DNA from: a virus | IMG/VR virus record: IMGVR_UViG_3300006802_000213 | Coordinates: 1 to 38,665 of that record | Direction: 5' to 3' (one strand) | DNA: 38,665 nt | Part shown: one piece after another, positions 29,829-36,443 of the stretch | Numbering within the stretch: the stretch's first letter is position 1 | How the letters are laid out: every line of letters starts with the position of its first letter | Position numbers and translations under genes: made by a program | Notes under the pieces: model-generated | Told to the model about the DNA's origin: nothing | Databases searched by the model: none | Seen by the model: only the letters and a program-made list of their open reading frames with translations

Positions 29829-30473
29829 ATGACCCACACCACCACCCTGGTACACATCACACCTAACGCTGAAGAACTTATTGCCTATATGGCCCGTGTA
29901 AGTAATCCAGCTAATCAATCAAACACTGAGACCTCTCAACGACTCATTAGGTATCTAATCGAGCATCAACATTGGTCACCGTTTGAGATGGTTAATATGT
30001 GTGTTTCTATTGAGACCACTAGGAGCATCGCTGCACAGATCCTTAGGCATCGGAGCTTTAGCTTTCAGGAGTTCAGTCAACGGTATGCACCAGTAACTGA
30101 GATGGCTGTAATCCCACAGCTTAGGACTCAGGATACAAAGAATCGACAGAATAGTATTGATAATCTTGATGAGGTAGTAGATAAAAAGTTTCAGTTTGAG
30201 ATAGCTAAGCAGTACTGTGAGGCGTATAGGTTGTATCGGGATATGATTGATGCGGGCATCGCTAAGGAGTGTGCAAGAGAAGTACTCCCACTAGCAGCAC
30301 CAACAAAGCTGTACATGAACGGTACCATTAGGTCCTGGATTCATTACTGCCAGCTTAGGTGTGGTAACGGGACACAACTGGAACATAGGATGATCGCAGA
30401 AGGTGCCTACAAGCTCCTACAAGAGCATCTACCTGGTGTCTGTGCAGCTCTAGTGTGCGTTAGCACGCACTAA
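29829..30473 (+). CDS. thyX: Flavin-dependent thymidylate synthase ThyX
   Basis: This 214-aa protein has the ThyX motif RHRX7S at residues 73-83 (RHRSFSFQEFS) followed by QRY. Other family segments are YLIEHQHWSPFEMVNMCV, AREVLPLAAPTKLYMNGTIRSWIHYCQLR (substrate site) and QLEHRMIAEGAYKLLQEHLPG. It makes dTMP from dUMP using FAD, NADPH and methylene-tetrahydrofolate, supporting fast phage DNA synthesis. It is known in several cyanopodoviruses. The C-terminal codons contain a palindrome that is repeated in inverted orientation near 31405. Confidence 0.95.
   Translation: MTHTTTLVHITPNAEELIAYMARVSNPANQSNTETSQRLIRYLIEHQHWSPFEMVNMCVSIETTRSIAAQILRHRSFSFQEFSQRYAPVTEMAVIPQLRTQDTKNRQNSIDNLDEVVDKKFQFEIAKQYCEAYRLYRDMIDAGIAKECAREVLPLAAPTKLYMNGTIRSWIHYCQLRCGNGTQLEHRMIAEGAYKLLQEHLPGVCAALVCVSTH
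30454..30473. repeat. 20-bp inverted-repeat copy A (palindromic)
   Basis: TGTGCGTTAGCACGCACTAA at the very end of thyX contains a perfect hairpin (GTGCGT-TAGC-ACGCAC). Its exact reverse complement is at 31405-31424. The two copies flank the large non-coding region. Confidence 0.8.
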
Positions 30474-30476
30474 GTC

Positions 30477-30722
30477 ATGTATAGCCGTACTGGACCTAGA
30501 GAACAAGGTAAACGGTACTCTAAGGGGTCTAAGAGGCCCCAGAAGGTCCGTCAAGCTAAAGCCAGGTACAAACACCTTAAACGTAAATACAAGCCCCTTA
30601 CAGGTCGTTCTGGAGGGGCCTCCTTAATTTTTGACATAAATTTAACAAGCCTTATATCGCCAGATGGCCTCGTATTTCCCCCCAGTACCCCCCTCTTGCG
30701 ATCAAGGACTCACACGGTATAG
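30477..30722 (+). CDS. Small basic protein, C-terminus doubtful (81 aa)
   Basis: The N-terminal 45 residues are strongly basic (GPREQGKRYSKGSKRPQKVRQ and onward), begin 3 bases after thyX and look protein-like. The rest overlaps a terminator-like inverted repeat (about 30611-30625) and a sigma-70-like promoter (30631-30658), and it becomes proline/hydroxyl-rich and unlikely. It may be a real basic gene that ends later than expected, or an ORF read into regulatory DNA. Confidence 0.42.
   Translation: MYSRTGPREQGKRYSKGSKRPQKVRQAKARYKHLKRKYKPLTGRSGGASLIFDINLTSLISPDGLVFPPSTPLLRSRTHTV
30631..30658 (+). promoter_or_regulatory. Candidate host sigma-70 promoter
   Basis: TTGACA (30631-30636) is followed after 16 bases by TATATC (30653-30658). 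A small GGAG-GGGC-CTCC hairpin and TTAATTTTT precede it. Host-type promoters are expected near the early end of a T7-like genome, where the host polymerase transcribes the first genes. Confidence 0.45.
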
Positions 30723-31054: not shown

Positions 31055-31391
31055 GCGTGTATAGCCTTTTTGCAGTAGTTCGCCTATGACGCGACCTGTA
31101 GCACTATTTCCATCCACACGACTTGCTCACTACGTTCACACTCATCGCCAGCATCAGACAGCAGCCCTACGGTTTGGATCGATAAGGAACGCTGATAGGG
31201 TCAGATAGGCGTTTGGTATCAGGGCGAACTACGGGGAGTCTGGATACCTGGTATATTAGGTACATCGGTGGGGGACAAGCCTGCTGTGTTACCTTGACAA
31301 CTAAATAGTGTGGTTCGTCATAAGACGGAACTAGCGGTGCGAGCGATCCCGCGAGTAACTATAGGTTGCAACTCAACCTGGTTACACGAAC

Positions 31392-31398
31392 CCGTATC
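31392..31398 (+). promoter_or_regulatory. CCGTATC motif upstream of the early genes
   Basis: GAACCCGTATCTAATC lies about 91 bases before the first early gene, next to the inverted-repeat copy at 31405. It matches the element at 29584 upstream of the thyX unit. Confidence 0.35.
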
Positions 31399-31404
31399 TA
31401 ATCA

Positions 31405-31424
31405 TTAGTGCGTGCTAACGCACA
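31405..31424. repeat. 20-bp inverted-repeat copy B (palindromic)
   Basis: TTAGTGCGTGCTAACGCACA is the exact reverse complement of 30454-30473 and itself folds as a 6-bp hairpin. TTAGTGC is repeated immediately afterwards. Confidence 0.8.
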
Positions 31425-31488
31425 TTAGTGCAGAGCCACATGCACTATAAACATTAGATCATGGCGCCTGTTCCATTGCTATTAGTTT

Positions 31489-31638
31489 ATGTCCATTACT
31501 ATTGATAAGAAGGTTGCTACTGGTCTTCTTAGTAAGGCTAGTACAGGTAATGATCTCTTGAGTGTACTTGAGATGATCGTTAGTAGTTTCACTAAGTCTA
31601 CTGTTGTTGAGCCTACTCTTGAGGAGATTGAGTTCTGA
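31489..31638 (+). CDS. Early small protein (49 aa)
   Basis: MSITIDKKVATGLLSKAS... is the first gene of the early block. Its stop overlaps the next start (TGATG). It is acidic at the C-terminus (EPTLEEIEF) and helical in prediction. The function is unknown, but early position suggests host takeover or defence-evasion roles. Confidence 0.6.
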   Translation: MSITIDKKVATGLLSKASTGNDLLSVLEMIVSSFTKSTVVEPTLEEIEF

Positions 31639-31856
31639 TGTCTACCTATACATTTGACCAGTTGCGTGATGCTGTGCAGGAATGCACCAGTTATGATCTT
31701 GTTCAACGGTTTAGTGATGATGAGGATGAGTATGCGTTGATTGATCCTTATGGTGATCAAGATGGTGATCCATTCTATGATCTTAATGATGTAGAGGATT
31801 TCATCCGCAATAACGATCAAGTTGATCAGTATTTGTACGAGCTTGTCAATCAATGA
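31638..31856 (+). CDS. Early acidic protein (72 aa)
   Basis: This 72-aa protein is strongly acidic: Asp, Glu, Gln and Asn dominate (FSDDEDEYALIDPYGDQDGD...). It overlaps both neighbours (1 and 4 bases). Such acidity is common in small DNA-mimic or host-protein-binding early proteins, but no family can be named. Confidence 0.68.
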   Translation: MSTYTFDQLRDAVQECTSYDLVQRFSDDEDEYALIDPYGDQDGDPFYDLNDVEDFIRNNDQVDQYLYELVNQ

Positions 31857-32005
31857 CATACTACATTGCCAAGATGTCTGATGAAGGTAACTGGGAGTAT
31901 TTAGATAATGCACCTAGTTATTCTGATGCAGAGATGATGCTTGATGCGTACTGTGATATGTATCCTCAAGCTTACATTGACGTAATTCACACTCACGAGG
32001 ACTGA
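31853..32005 (+). CDS. Early acidic protein (50 aa)
   Basis: MTYYIAKMSDEGNWEYLDNAP... starts within the last codons of the previous gene (CAATGACA) and ends 2 bases before the next ATG. It is rich in Asp, Tyr and Met (AEMMLDAYCDMYPQAYIDV). It is too short for a homology search without tools, but the overlaps make it a convincing gene. The function is unknown. Confidence 0.6.
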   Translation: MTYYIAKMSDEGNWEYLDNAPSYSDAEMMLDAYCDMYPQAYIDVIHTHED

Positions 32006-32007
32006 TC

Positions 32008-32583
32008 ATGACTACCACTACTACCTTTATGCTTAAGGGTCAATCACTTGTTGACTATCACAATGAGATGATGCAACGAGTTGAGAGGGGAGAGATTACA
32101 CGTACTGAGGTTATCCTTGATGCTGGTTATGTGTATGACAATGGCAAGGCTATGTATGTGGACTACTACACTGAGCTATTGAATGCAAGAGGTATTGTAC
32201 CTGTGACTACTAGTGATGTTGCGGACAAGGAATATGATGACCTGTCCACTGATAAGCGGGAGTTGTATGATAAGATCACTGATGTACTTGGTGAGAAGTG
32301 GACACATGAGGAGACGATTGAGTTCATGGATGAGCTTGAGGACATTGGTATTGAGACTGCTAGTGACTTTGATGATGCGTATGAGTGGACTCATGATAGC
32401 TACTCATCGTATGCAGAGAAGGAGTTTGCTGAGTATTGGTGTGTTGAAGTAATGGATGCACGTATCCCTGATATTGTGTATTCTGCTGTTGACTGGCAGG
32501 ATGTATGGGATCATAACCTGCGTTATGACTTCTCGTACATTGAGACTGTTAATGGTACGTTCTTCTTTCGTAATAACTTATGA
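32008..32583 (+). CDS. ArdA-like antirestriction protein
   Basis: This 191-aa protein is highly acidic. Its C-terminal third (about residues 128-190) follows the ArdA pattern: a SSYAEKEFAEYWC helix, then DWQDVWDHNLRYDFSYIE and the terminal NGTFFFRNNL. ArdA proteins mimic bent B-form DNA and inhibit type I restriction-modification enzymes. Early position in the operon fits defence against host restriction. The N-terminal 70 residues (MLKGQSLVDYHNEMMQRVERGEITRTEVI) are not recognised as ArdA, so this may be a fusion or a divergent variant. Confidence in ArdA-like is moderate. Confidence 0.68.
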   Translation: MTTTTTFMLKGQSLVDYHNEMMQRVERGEITRTEVILDAGYVYDNGKAMYVDYYTELLNARGIVPVTTSDVADKEYDDLSTDKRELYDKITDVLGEKWTHEETIEFMDELEDIGIETASDFDDAYEWTHDSYSSYAEKEFAEYWCVEVMDARIPDIVYSAVDWQDVWDHNLRYDFSYIETVNGTFFFRNNL

Positions 32584-32732
32584 CAATTGATGAGCTGCTC
32601 GATCAAATGATGATCAAGTCTTTTGTTGAGTCTGTTCACTATAGCAACAAACTTGAGGACATCAATGTTCCTCTTGATCGTTGTTATGACCTGTGTATTG
32701 GTACTTATGATGATGAAAGTTCGAGTACGTAA
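32580..32732 (+). CDS. Early acidic protein (50 aa)
   Basis: MTIDELLDQMMIKSFVESVHYSNK... overlaps the preceding stop (ATGA) and shares its 3' end with the next ORF. It is acidic, with DDESSST at the end. The four-base overlap at its start suggests coupled translation. The function is unknown. Confidence 0.58.
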   Translation: MTIDELLDQMMIKSFVESVHYSNKLEDINVPLDRCYDLCIGTYDDESSST

Positions 32733-32889
32733 CGTATTAAGTGAGGCTATAGAGCGTGGCATACGTCATGCTCTGATGAATACTGATCGTGTTGCTATTG
32801 ATGAGCCTGATATCACTTACTTAACTGAGGAGATTGATCGATCAGTGTGGCTTCAGGTTGACGACTACTTCACCTTTGACTTTGATTGA
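32707..32889 (+). CDS. Early acidic protein (60 aa)
   Basis: The longest open frame reaches back to 32623, but the MMMKVRVRNVL start (32707, with further Met codons at 32710 and 32713) overlaps the previous gene by only 26 bases and is more plausible. The protein is basic at the N-terminus and acidic later (IDEPDITYLTEEIDRS, ending FTFDFD). It is not recognised. Confidence 0.55.
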   Translation: MMMKVRVRNVLSEAIERGIRHALMNTDRVAIDEPDITYLTEEIDRSVWLQVDDYFTFDFD

Positions 32890-32890
32890 C

Positions 32891-33139
32891 ATGTCTGTTT
32901 TCACACTGACTAACTACTGCAGCTGTGGTAGTACGTCTATTCTTGGTGTCTTTGAATCTATGGAGGCTTGTCTTGAGCGTTGCCGTGTGCTTGCTGTTTG
33001 TACTGAGCCTGGTGATGAGTATCGCATTGAGTGCTTCGATGTGAAGACATTCTATGAAGAGGAAGCTAACACTGAACAGGTGTTGCGTTCACGTGCTGAG
33101 TGGAAGGCTAAGCAAGCCAAACTTGAGGAGATGGAGTGA
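32891..33139 (+). CDS. Early Cys-containing protein (82 aa)
   Basis: The start MSVFTLTNYCSCGSTSILGVF at 32891, one base after the preceding stop, is preferred over earlier in-frame codons. It has five Cys (CSC, C, C, C) and an acidic, helical C-terminus (EEEANTEQVLRSRAEWKAKQ). No CxxC pair is visible to prove zinc binding. The function is unknown. Confidence 0.62.
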   Translation: MSVFTLTNYCSCGSTSILGVFESMEACLERCRVLAVCTEPGDEYRIECFDVKTFYEEEANTEQVLRSRAEWKAKQAKLEEME

Positions 33140-33327
33140 TGCCAACTGTACACGACACAGCCATCAAGGTTGATGTGTATCCTGATGAGTTCAAACCTAT
33201 CATGAAGGCAGTCAAGTATGCATTAGTATGTGATGACTCACGTAGTATCTTTAATGAAGTAGAGTGGGCTACGTTGAATGCGTGGCTTGATGATTTCTCT
33301 GATGTTGCACTTAACGAGGCTATCTAA
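33139..33327 (+). CDS. Early acidic protein (62 aa)
   Basis: MPTVHDTAIKVDVYPDEFKPIMKAV... The ATG at 33139 overlaps the preceding stop (TGATG). An adjacent GTG at 33136 is an alternative. It is mostly helical, with an acidic end (NAWLDDFSDVALNEAI). The function is unknown. Confidence 0.65.
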   Translation: MPTVHDTAIKVDVYPDEFKPIMKAVKYALVCDDSRSIFNEVEWATLNAWLDDFSDVALNEAI

Positions 33328-33497
33328 TGGCTAAAGCTCTCACTGACGAACAGCGTAAACTGCGTCTTGAGTTGGTTGATCTAGCTGCTCAAGGTATACG
33401 CACTCAAGGCACAAATGGTTACTACGACCAAGCACAAATTGATTATCTAGTGCAGCAACTAGAGCGTGTTGCTAAGTTCCTTTGCCTTAAGAACTAA
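33327..33497 (+). CDS. Small protein (56 aa)
   Basis: MAKALTDEQRKLRLELVDLAA... starts on the last base of the previous stop (TAATGG). It is helical, with Gln-rich motifs and a C-terminal LERVAKFLCLKN. The function is unknown. Confidence 0.62.
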   Translation: MAKALTDEQRKLRLELVDLAAQGIRTQGTNGYYDQAQIDYLVQQLERVAKFLCLKN

Positions 33498-33499
33498 TT

Positions 33500-33664
33500 A
33501 TGTACACCACTCACAAGGGCTTGAGAGAGTATGAGGTCACTCTTGGTTCAGGTGTTTGGTATCTCCTAGCACCCGACTCTGAGTCAGCAGCTTGGACTGC
33601 GTTAGAGTTGTCCCGTGAACGCAAGGATGAACTGCTTAATGTTAAACAAACTGATGAGTGGTAA
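33500..33664 (+). CDS. Small protein (54 aa)
   Basis: MYTTHKGLREYEVTLGSGVWYLLAPDSESAAW... starts 2 bases after the preceding stop and ends at the ATG of the next gene (TAATG). It is rich in Glu, Leu and Lys at the end (LELSRERKDELLNVKQTDEW). The function is unknown. Confidence 0.62.
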   Translation: MYTTHKGLREYEVTLGSGVWYLLAPDSESAAWTALELSRERKDELLNVKQTDEW

Positions 33665-33969
33665 TGGGTAAGAAACAAGACTTTCCAAACAACTGGCAAG
33701 AATACAAAGATGCAGATGATGACATGTTCATCCCTCATACATTTGAGGAGTTGATGTCATGGAAGCTAGCTAACTGGGAACTACCTGGTTCTGTGTGTTG
33801 CATCATCCGTGCTTCTGACGTAGAGACTAAGAAGGTCAAGGAGTATGTCTACAGTAAGCGTAGTGCTGCGCAAGCTAAGGTCAATCAACTAATCAACACA
33901 CCTGGTGTTGAGTTCACAGTTGTTGATCACGAGTCTATTCATTTTCTCACACCTACTGATTTCGAGTAA
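33664..33969 (+). CDS. Early protein of unknown function (101 aa)
   Basis: MGKKQDFPNNWQEYKDADDDMFIPH... The ATG at 33664 is preferred to the GTG at 33658 because it uses the TAATG overlap. Residues 45-100 contain VCCIIRASDVETKKVKEYVYSKRSAAQAKV and a beta-strand-like end (VEFTVVDHESIHFLTPTDFE). No family is recognised. Confidence 0.68.
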   Translation: MGKKQDFPNNWQEYKDADDDMFIPHTFEELMSWKLANWELPGSVCCIIRASDVETKKVKEYVYSKRSAAQAKVNQLINTPGVEFTVVDHESIHFLTPTDFE

Positions 33970-34103
33970 TGTCTGAATACACTTTCTCTCGTCGCCTTCA
34001 AGAACTGATCAAGCAAGTAGAGAATCATCCTAATCGTGATGAGATCATTAAGCTTGCAGAAGAGCAACTTGTTGATGACACGTTCACAATCACACGTAAC
34101 TAA
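33969..34103 (+). CDS. Early small protein (44 aa)
   Basis: MSEYTFSRRLQELIKQVENHPNRDEIIKLAEEQLVDD... starts within the previous stop (TAATG) and stops at TAA immediately before the TTG start of the RNA polymerase (TAATTG). It is helical. It is a good candidate for a coupled translation leader for the polymerase. Confidence 0.6.
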   Translation: MSEYTFSRRLQELIKQVENHPNRDEIIKLAEEQLVDDTFTITRN

Positions 34104-36443
34104 TTGGCAACACCTGCACAAATTGACGAACAAGTAGCATTAGAACGAGAACAGATCAGACAAGGACTACAACGCCTTAGAGACAACACTCGTAAGCTAC
34201 AAGACCAAAGCTATGCAAGTGCCACTGTATATGGTGTAGCGTCTATCGATGCGCTACTACCTAGCCTTGTCAAGCACATCGAAGAGACCACTGAATATCG
34301 CCTTAAGCGAGGTTCTGGTCATCAATTTGATATCGTCAAGAACTATGTAACGCAACTAGAGCCACTTGCTGCTGCTGCTATTGCACTAAAGCTTACCTTC
34401 GATAAGGTATTCTCTACTAAGCAAGGTAGTGATCAATTGCAAGCAGTATGTGATAGCATTGGTTCAGCTGTTGAAGCTGAATGTCAAATGCGTTACTACG
34501 AGAAGTCAGCACCTGCTCTTCTTGCTACTTTAAAGAGGAACTATTTTCATCGATCTATTGGTACACACCAGAAACTGGTTGTGATCCGTACATTGATGAA
34601 TAGATCTGATGTGAAGGAGTGGGATGCATGGGGTAGAGCTAATCGTATCAAGCTAGGTGCATGGCTACTTGATTGCATCATGCAAACTAGTGGATGGTTC
34701 ACCAAAGATCTACGTAGGCTTGGTAAGCAAACAGTTACGTTTGTTGCACCAACACCTGAGTTCCTTAAGATTAAGGATAAGGTCATGAGTGATGCTGAAC
34801 TATTTGCACCACTTGCATGGCCAATGCTTATTGAACCGAACGATTGGACTAACGATCGTGCTGGTGGTTACCTATTGAATGAGGTAATGCGAGGCAATGA
34901 TCTCGTGCGGAGGGGAGATCCCACCCGTATACAGGGGGGCACCCCTATAGAGTTTCTGAACAAGATTCAGAAGGTAGCATACCAGATAAACCCCTTTATT
35001 TACGGGGTTGCTGAGAAGCTTACTGAATTAGAACGCTCTGTTGGGAAGTTCCTTCCTATTGTCCATCATCCTCTTCCTGCTAAACCTGCTGATATTGAAA
35101 CCAACTACGATAGCCGTAAGGATTATCGAAGAAGGGCAGCGGAGGTGATGAACATACAAGCACAAGAACCTAAGAAGTCATGTCGTACACGCATGACAAT
35201 GGAAGCAGCTAAAAGGTTCAAGGATAGGGAGAGGTTCTATTGTCCGTGGTCGTTTGACTATCGAGGAAGAGCTTACCCTATCCCTGCTTTTCTTACACCA
35301 CAAGATACTGACTTTGGTAAGTCATTGCTGAGGTTTGCTGATGGTGCTTATATGGTACCTGAAGCTGAGTCGTGGTTAGCATTCCATGTAGCTACATGCT
35401 ATGGCCTGGATAAGGCTACAATGGAAGAGAGGTTGGAGTGGGTGTCGAATAACGTCACACTCATCAGCCGCATTGCTACTGATCCTATTGGGTCTTTACC
35501 TGAATGGGAAGCAGCAGAAGAACCATGGCAATTCTTAGCTAGTTGTGATGAGTATTATCATTGTGTGATCACAGCTGATAGACAATTTACATCATTACCT
35601 GTTGCTGTAGATGCAACATGCAGTGGTCTACAAATTTTGGCTGGACTCGCACGTGATAGGTCAACAGCTAAGCTGGTGAATGTACTACCTGGTGATAAGC
35701 CACAAGATGCTTATAAGGTAGTAGCTGAGGCTGCTATGTCCTCAGTGCCTGAACGTTTACGTCCTCACCTAGACAGGAAGAAGACTAAACGATGCGTGAT
35801 GACTATTCCATATAATGCAAAGCCATTCTCCAATAGGGGATACATTAAAGAGGCTTTCTTGGCGGATGGGATAGAACTTGATAAGGAAGAGCTTACTCAA
35901 GTTGTTAAAGCTATCAGGGCTGCTATGGATGAGGTCGTACCTGGTCCTATGGCTGTCATGAAGTGGATTGAGACTGAAGTAGCTGCTGCTGTTAAACGTG
36001 GAGCACAGCATCTAGAATGGGTAACACCATCTGGATTTGTTGTCTTCCAGAAGCTTAACAAGAAGCAGTTTCAGTCTATGGAGTTACAGCTGCTCGGTCG
36101 TTGTAAGATGAACGTAGCAGTTGGTGAAACAGATGAGGTTGATCTTAACCACCATAAGAATGCAACTGCTCCTAATCTAATCCATTCACTTGATGCTAGC
36201 CTATTACATCTAAGTGCCCTACGGTTTAACGCACCCATTGCTCTTATCCATGATTCTGTGCTTTGTCGTGCAACGGATATGTCCTCCCTGTCTACTATCG
36301 TCAGAGAGACATACATGCACCTCTTTGCAGAGCATGATTACCTACGAGACTTTGCCAAGTATATCAGTGCAGAGTCTGAACCACCGATCATTGGTGATCT
36401 AGAGCCAGAGACCGTGATCGAATCCACCTATTTTTTCTGCTGA
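34104..36443 (+). CDS. T7-type single-subunit DNA-directed RNA polymerase
   Basis: This 779-aa protein compares with 883 in T7 and is typical of cyanopodoviruses. The palm motifs are present: motif A VAVDATCSGLQILAGL with Asp503; motif B KRCVMTIPYNAKPFSNRGY with Lys562 and the Tyr-containing selectivity helix; motif C ALIHDSVL with His716-Asp717. The C-terminal foot ends TYFFC, like the T7 FAFA end. It transcribes phage middle and late genes from phage promoters. The start is a rare TTG directly after the preceding stop, and no in-frame ATG exists for over 100 codons. A promoter-like string lies inside the gene at 34915-34931. Confidence 0.95.
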   Translation: MATPAQIDEQVALEREQIRQGLQRLRDNTRKLQDQSYASATVYGVASIDALLPSLVKHIEETTEYRLKRGSGHQFDIVKNYVTQLEPLAAAAIALKLTFDKVFSTKQGSDQLQAVCDSIGSAVEAECQMRYYEKSAPALLATLKRNYFHRSIGTHQKLVVIRTLMNRSDVKEWDAWGRANRIKLGAWLLDCIMQTSGWFTKDLRRLGKQTVTFVAPTPEFLKIKDKVMSDAELFAPLAWPMLIEPNDWTNDRAGGYLLNEVMRGNDLVRRGDPTRIQGGTPIEFLNKIQKVAYQINPFIYGVAEKLTELERSVGKFLPIVHHPLPAKPADIETNYDSRKDYRRRAAEVMNIQAQEPKKSCRTRMTMEAAKRFKDRERFYCPWSFDYRGRAYPIPAFLTPQDTDFGKSLLRFADGAYMVPEAESWLAFHVATCYGLDKATMEERLEWVSNNVTLISRIATDPIGSLPEWEAAEEPWQFLASCDEYYHCVITADRQFTSLPVAVDATCSGLQILAGLARDRSTAKLVNVLPGDKPQDAYKVVAEAAMSSVPERLRPHLDRKKTKRCVMTIPYNAKPFSNRGYIKEAFLADGIELDKEELTQVVKAIRAAMDEVVPGPMAVMKWIETEVAAAVKRGAQHLEWVTPSGFVVFQKLNKKQFQSMELQLLGRCKMNVAVGETDEVDLNHHKNATAPNLIHSLDASLLHLSALRFNAPIALIHDSVLCRATDMSSLSTIVRETYMHLFAEHDYLRDFAKYISAESEPPIIGDLEPETVIESTYFFC
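34915..34939 (+). promoter_or_regulatory. Promoter-like element inside the RNA polymerase gene
   Basis: GAGATCCCACCCGTATA matches 29389-29405 in 16 of 17 positions, then CA and a six-G run. GGGCACCCC follows within 10 bases. It lies in coding sequence (RGDPTRIQGG) that looks GC-run-rich compared with the flanks, and it would drive the ssb-endonuclease-primase genes. Confidence 0.45.

Follow-up and report, generated by a model that had tools for sequence, protein, structure and literature searches.

The window analyzed here is a viral DNA of 38,665 nucleotides (nt) (IMG/VR record IMGVR_UViG_3300006802_000213, positions 1 to 38,665). Between positions 31489 and 34103, it carries a train of twelve open reading frames (ORFs) on the plus strand, which we call g1 to g12, and these small genes sit directly upstream of the gene for a single-subunit RNA polymerase, as in T7-like early regions. 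We focus on one gene of the train, g4 (32008..32583), which encodes a cyAbrB N-terminal-like domain and an ArdA-like DNA-mimic part, and on a structured leader RNA that precedes the train (31265..31449).

The train is packed tightly. Just 5 bases of the interval are uncovered (99.8% coverage), whereas in 500 dinucleotide shuffles, ATG-initiated ORFs of at least 40 amino acids (aa) cover 17 ± 9% of it, with a maximum of 41%. The proteins are, in order, 49, 72, 50, 191, 50, 58 to 60, 82, 62, 56, 54, 101, and 44 aa long. From g1 to g12, the stop-to-start offsets are −1, −4, +2, −4, −26 (or −20), +1, −1, −1, +2, −1, and −1, and the offset between g12 and the RNA polymerase gene is 0, so that all twelve junctions lie within −26 to +2. 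Five of the junctions are of the form TAATG or TGATG and two are ATGA, as would be expected if translation of the train were coupled. Eleven of the twelve proteins have a predicted isoelectric point (pI) of 4.05 to 4.98 (the exception is g9, at 7.87), and the train proteins are more acidic than 25 other proteins of the window (Mann-Whitney p = 3e-4). An earlier, sequence-only reading had described this interval as a dense run of overlapping or nearly abutting, mostly acidic ORFs; its coordinates and each of these features hold, but it counted eleven ORFs and we find twelve.

A two-part protein encoded by g4

g4 is a two-part protein: residues 1-67 (32008..32208, plus strand) form a domain with homology to the N terminus of the host regulator cyAbrB, and residues 68-191 (32209..32580, plus strand) form an acidic, ArdA-like part. 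The N-terminal part aligned to cyAbrB by hhalign with a probability of 97.7 and an E value of 1.8e-12 (30% identity over 54 columns); it scored 67.5, whereas the best of 100 column-shuffled decoys reached 19.3. In the reciprocal test, the g4 profile matched 31 of 292 cyanobacterial genomes, nearly always via residues 6-66, and the loci that we fetched for these matches encode either cyAbrB or proteins with the cyAbrB N-domain. Conversely, a query with the host N-domain found the g4 orthologues of phages S-B28 and WH11-B directly (50% identity). The queries for cyAbrB and for ArdA of Tn916 served as seeds, and the host N-domain queries were a manually entered consensus; our conclusions rely on the database sequences that were fetched and on the independent reciprocal search.

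The homology covers about 55 N-terminal residues of cyAbrB, which differs from g4 in having a C-terminal AbrB-like part (PF14250). Assigning the N-domain of g4 to PF14250 would be wrong: that family covers about residues 43-112 of cyAbrB, it has no match in the window, and the corresponding part is missing from g4. A literature search for what the N-domain of cyAbrB does found no paper.

The same N-domain occurs in other settings. In one cyanobacterial genome, an ORF of 250 aa (L182; G273:C1, about position 1943304) joins it to an ArdA that is complete (83.4 bits in Pfam), and therefore the pairing of this domain with ArdA is found outside phages too. A stand-alone version of 52 aa is present in the Prochlorococcus myovirus P-TIM68 (L206, 1201-1356) and in an IMG/VR contig (L274). 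The cyAbrB N-domain is a traveling module, occurring alone or within larger proteins. Most of the cyAbrB-type proteins in IMG/VR are full cyAbrB (75 of 82 ORFs), and some of these may come from host DNA; we excluded them as evidence from phages. Three other viral contigs (L294, L311, and L326) encode proteins of about 230 to 240 aa with the cyAbrB N-domain between unknown regions. As a separate observation, the 52-aa proteins might be microproteins that act on host cyAbrB.

The AlphaFold2 model of g4 (53 sequences) has a mean pLDDT of 89.5, and its top solved structure by Foldseek is ArdA (2w82; probability, 0.97). The two superpose with a Z score of 5.7 (VIA; 87 aligned residues, root mean square deviation of 3.1), again as the top match with the next chain at 3.2, and on the ArdA side the match takes in the central and C-terminal domains. 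In a viral library, several of the named matches to g4 are antirestriction proteins, and the orthologues in phages DSL-LC07 and WH11-B are labeled "antirestriction protein." The negative charge is concentrated in the ArdA-like part, where residues 68-191 have a net charge of −25 (the median across the family is −27), against −3 in the N-terminal part. A profile-profile comparison with 12 ArdA sequences gave a probability of 22% and a score of 28.1, which is above all 100 decoys (maximum, 21.0), and this alignment finishes at the matching C terminus. Together, these comparisons point, with moderate scores, to an ArdA central and C-terminal fold in residues 89-189 of g4, which resemble residues 75-165 of ArdA.

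Other searches with g4 were negative: there were no matches in Pfam, NCBIfam, or PADLOC, only chance matches of its profile among PDB sequences, none in a protein search of genome contigs, and none in a plasmid search that used the first 67 residues only. One 116-aa cyanobacterial ORF (L186; G267:C1:343955-344212) resembles g4 in the ArdA-like part alone (E = 8.9e-11).

Like ArdA (Tn916 ArdA, PDB 2w82; PF07275), g4 is strongly acidic, can be superposed on it in part, and is carried by a mobile element or phage; unlike ArdA, it lacks domain 1, falls under the Pfam cutoff, and has a cyAbrB-derived N terminus. Another parallel is with the small ArdA proteins of the sArdC type, which contain only the C-terminal side of ArdA and shield lambda from type I restriction (PMC12548430). 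These are stand-alone proteins of about one-third the size of ArdA, whereas g4 has an extra host-type domain of 67 residues and belongs to the early operon of a phage. Because a defining feature of ArdA and one of cyAbrB were looked for and are missing from g4, we file it under neither family.

A structured leader RNA upstream of the train

The noncoding leader at 31265..31449 (plus strand) folds into a three-way junction (P1, P2, and P3a/b) followed by a 3' hairpin (P4). In an alignment of 43 sequences, 98.0% of the cells in the five helices are paired, versus 83% in shuffles; 16 pairs are changed on both sides, versus 12.5; and 185 cells are double changes, versus 53. When the structure was slid along the alignment, 30 to 37% of cells were paired. 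The structure was drawn by eye from the alignment (P1 pairs columns 101-107 with 197-203 of alignment A5; the other helices are P2, P3a, P3b, and P4), and RNAalifold recovered nearly the same pairs unaided. In S-CBP1, which was outside the alignment, the two sides of P1 are CACTCGT and ACGAGTG, which are still complementary. A conserved U-G pair in P3b argues for RNA rather than DNA. On its own, the window's leader folds unremarkably (z = −1.4), and the evidence is the covariation. We consider it close to certain that the structure itself is real.

The core pattern of the leader is present in 73 IMG/VR contigs. The thyX gene lies upstream in 64 of them, and g1, g2, or g4 lies downstream in all 47 contigs that have more than 1.5 kb of room. 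No annotation covers the leader in DSL-LC07 or S-CBP1, and Rfam 15 has no match overlapping it at E ≤ 1 in the window or in five relatives. It was also found in none of 194 cyanobacterial genomes, in a search with stricter filters and no positive control among the genomes. Some relatives, such as S-B28 and L003, have no full match, which suggests that the leader is lineage specific.

Our leading guess is that the leader promotes antitermination of the host polymerase, and any role that we give it is conjectural. Possible parallels are the antitermination leaders HK022 put and EAR, structured RNAs that likewise precede the genes of a long transcript and lie close to its 5' end; the leader differs from them in having no sequence match in Rfam. 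An inverted repeat of 27 nt (93% complementary; 30447-30473 and 31405-31431) flanks the noncoding region from thyX to the 3' part of the leader, and palindromes similar to this repeat, resembling TGCGTTAGCACGCA, are inserted in some relatives.

Just before the leader, an alignment of 40 loci shows a conserved extended −10 promoter-like box, TGGTATATT (31249..31257, plus strand; consensus over 35). Most of the relatives have TTGACA 17 to 18 nt upstream of the box, where the window's subgroup has CGAACT. A generic scan found no plus-strand sigma-70 site at 31249..31257, and the promoter assignment comes from conservation only. Given this box and the position of the train before the RNA polymerase gene, the train is probably expressed early.

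The other eleven genes

A search of IMG/VR with the g4 protein gave 68 loci, to which we added the annotated phages DSL-LC07, S-B28, S-CBP1, and WH11-B. The sequence-only reading had proposed clustering the train with other cyanophage early genes; orthologues occur in the 68 loci and in isolates, with conserved synteny and purifying selection. The order is thyX, leader, g1 to g4, variable genes, g8 to g12, and RNA polymerase, and the interval from g4 to g8 is the most divergent; in one locus (L026), g5 lies between g2 and g3. Across loci, the median pN/pS is 0.29 to 0.52 for every train gene (the estimate for g5 was built on 3 sequences only); the RNA polymerase has a value of 0.27 and the neighboring single-stranded DNA-binding protein one of 0.22. 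Codon position 3 holds 44 to 54% of the differences among orthologues. The train thus looks like a modular early operon, with a conserved backbone (g1-g4 and g8-g12) and a cassette slot (g5-g7) that differs among phages. Such gain and loss of modules fits an arms-race locus without proving it.

All of these genes are on the plus strand. In the backbone before g4, no function was assigned to g1 (31489..31638; 49 aa; 34 sequences, pN/pS of 0.47) or to the acidic g3 (31853..32005; 50 aa; 43 sequences, 0.49), and g2 (31638..31856; 72 aa; net charge of about −17; 49 sequences, 0.36) belongs to phrog_35755, of unknown function. The slot contains g5 (32580..32732; 50 aa), a rare cassette gene (3 sequences, 0.41); g6 (32713..32889; 58 aa; phrog_22372; 20 sequences, 0.52); and g7 (32891..33139), a variable cassette gene (12 sequences, 0.30) that exceeds the Pfam cutoff for DUF7336 (PF24024; E = 6.4e-7). 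The start of g7 should be corrected to the ATG at 32891, which gives 82 aa. That of g6 should probably be corrected to the ATG at 32713; the first of its three ATGs (32707) would give 60 aa, and family members begin with MKV. After the slot come g8 (33139..33327; 62 aa; phrog_25680; 44 sequences, 0.43), the sole nonacidic protein g9 (33327..33497; 56 aa; no function assigned; 32 sequences, 0.39), g10 (33500..33664; 54 aa; phrog_29942; 46 sequences, 0.29), g11 (33664..33969; 101 aa; phrog_9569), and g12 (33969..34103; 44 aa; phrog_21680; 36 sequences, 0.39). The T7-like RNA polymerase gene (34104..36443, plus strand; annotated as RNA polymerase in relatives) abuts the stop of g12 and ends the train. 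It starts with TTG, as do 27 of 40 orthologues, and a TTG start flush with the stop of g12 might act as a brake on polymerase synthesis.

Early regions of T7-like cyanopodoviruses (such as S-CBP1, S-B28, and P-SSP7) are alike in having small unknown genes before the RNA polymerase gene and in sharing g11, and this clade differs in carrying g4 and the structured leader. Six loci (L004, L021, L032, L043, L054, and L152, which is S-CBP1) have extra genes between g12 and the RNA polymerase gene, and the window has none; in S-CBP1, these are annotated as a MarR regulator and an integrase. After thyX, the window has a basic ORF of 81 aa (30477-30722). Conservation in other loci (a family of 6) extends over roughly its first 45 residues, the remainder diverges, and its real 3' end may differ from the call.

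The sequence-only reading had also proposed that the train is a store of host-takeover and antidefense factors. For antidefense, this is supported for g4 by its ArdA-like fold and the labels of its orthologues, and no specific function is indicated for the other eleven: the matches of seven of them are to DUF7336 or to PHROGs without a known function, and PADLOC had no match for any window protein scanned (g9 and g12 were outside the scan). The small genes might instead be mostly takeover factors for host transcription or metabolism, with antidefense as a minor theme; we give this somewhat less than an even chance, and it is compatible with the antirestriction role that we favor for g4. g11 has a core-like distribution across host genera: it was found in 38 cyanopodovirus records, including Prochlorococcus phages. 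Because it is so widespread, g11 is more likely to have a core early function than to be a defense accessory. Its model (pLDDT of 78) had no convincing match in the PDB. Most of the train genes also lack a defense match. However, no takeover motif was found either, and arms-race genes typically come in variable cassettes such as this one.

Possible roles of g4 in an early operon

In our model, a T7-like cyanopodovirus that infects freshwater or estuarine Synechococcus or Cyanobium would have the train as its early operon. Host RNA polymerase would probably start at the sigma-70-type box around 31252, and the transcript would run through a structured leader of about 200 nt and then twelve small genes, presumably translationally coupled, into the gene for the phage RNA polymerase. 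Within this operon, the acidic part of g4 would imitate DNA and occupy a DNA-binding defense enzyme of the host, most likely a type I restriction enzyme, and the cyAbrB-derived domain would act as an adaptor, for dimerization or docking. Both the target and the adaptor role are conjectures. We put the probability of this explanation as a whole at about 0.6. We favor it because proteins with only the C-terminal side of ArdA protect lambda and because genes for HsdR_N-type nucleases are present in the family of a Cyanobium genome (G001), in 50 of its 151 genomes and mostly in the larger ones.

Several observations count against this explanation. The profile-profile support for the ArdA-like part is weak (22%), and the structural Z score of 5.7 is only moderate. 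The Pfam model for ArdA (PF07275) does not match g4 at E ≤ 1, and the best of 55 family members reaches just 15.4 bits (E = 0.029), against a cutoff of 27. g4 has no domain 1 and so does not have the three-domain architecture of ArdA. The HsdR_N genes are no proof of a type I system in this phage's own hosts. Finally, the window itself is without the −35 box that is present in most relatives.

The main rival is that g4 is an antisilencing protein aimed at cyAbrB, which we consider possible but unlikely. The N-domain would join host cyAbrB oligomers and the DNA-mimic part would cover their DNA-binding faces, leaving cyAbrB unable to silence incoming phage DNA or stripping it from host promoters. 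This would account for a domain derived from cyAbrB in which the AbrB-like DNA-binding part has been swapped for an acidic one, and the stand-alone N-domains of P-TIM68 and L274 also fit. cyAbrB2 has been proposed to be a nucleoid-associated protein, possibly defensive against foreign DNA, and is bound by cyAbrB1 (PMC11368403); there is also a precedent for ArdA binding and relieving a repressor, AllR (PMC13300388). However, the literature that we found does not assign oligomerization to the N-domain of cyAbrB. This domain is also part of unrelated multidomain proteins and might therefore be a module of general use, and the chromosomal fusion with a full ArdA fits restriction equally well.

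It is less probable still that the N-domain is a helix-turn-helix-like DNA tether anchoring the ArdA-like part to the phage genome. The modeled domain has three helices, and winged-helix regulators are among its weak fold matches (Z of 2.1 to 2.9). In polyvalent proteins that combine ArdC-N with ArdA, the fused ArdC-N domain was proposed to recruit ArdA to injected DNA (PMC5512222). But the N-domain is slightly acidic (median charge of −2, and −3 in the window), unlike a DNA binder, and the recognized AbrB-like part of host cyAbrB is the C-terminal one. Lastly, it is hardly credible that the small frames arose mostly by chance and yield no product: they are short and g5 is known from just three sequences, but the tiling, the selection, the conserved ATG starts, and the synteny already refute this for 11 of the 12 genes, with g5 the least certain.

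Returning to the antirestriction explanation, counterdefense in cyanophages is poorly known, and g4 is a concrete candidate that can be tested; its domain makeup ties a DNA mimic to the main nucleoid regulator of cyanobacteria. A joint scenario, speculative in both of its functions and in our view doubtful, is that the RNA at the head of the operon represents a new class in phages, which would act in cis on host RNA polymerase through antitermination or in response to a ligand, and that g4 is a DNA mimic armed with a host module, which would dock on cyAbrB and lift nucleoid silencing of phage DNA. The leader RNA is probably the most novel element of the region: a strongly supported, uncatalogued structured RNA that heads the early genes in a widespread group of phages, and S-CBP1 on Synechococcus CB0101 is an isolate system in which it can be tested.

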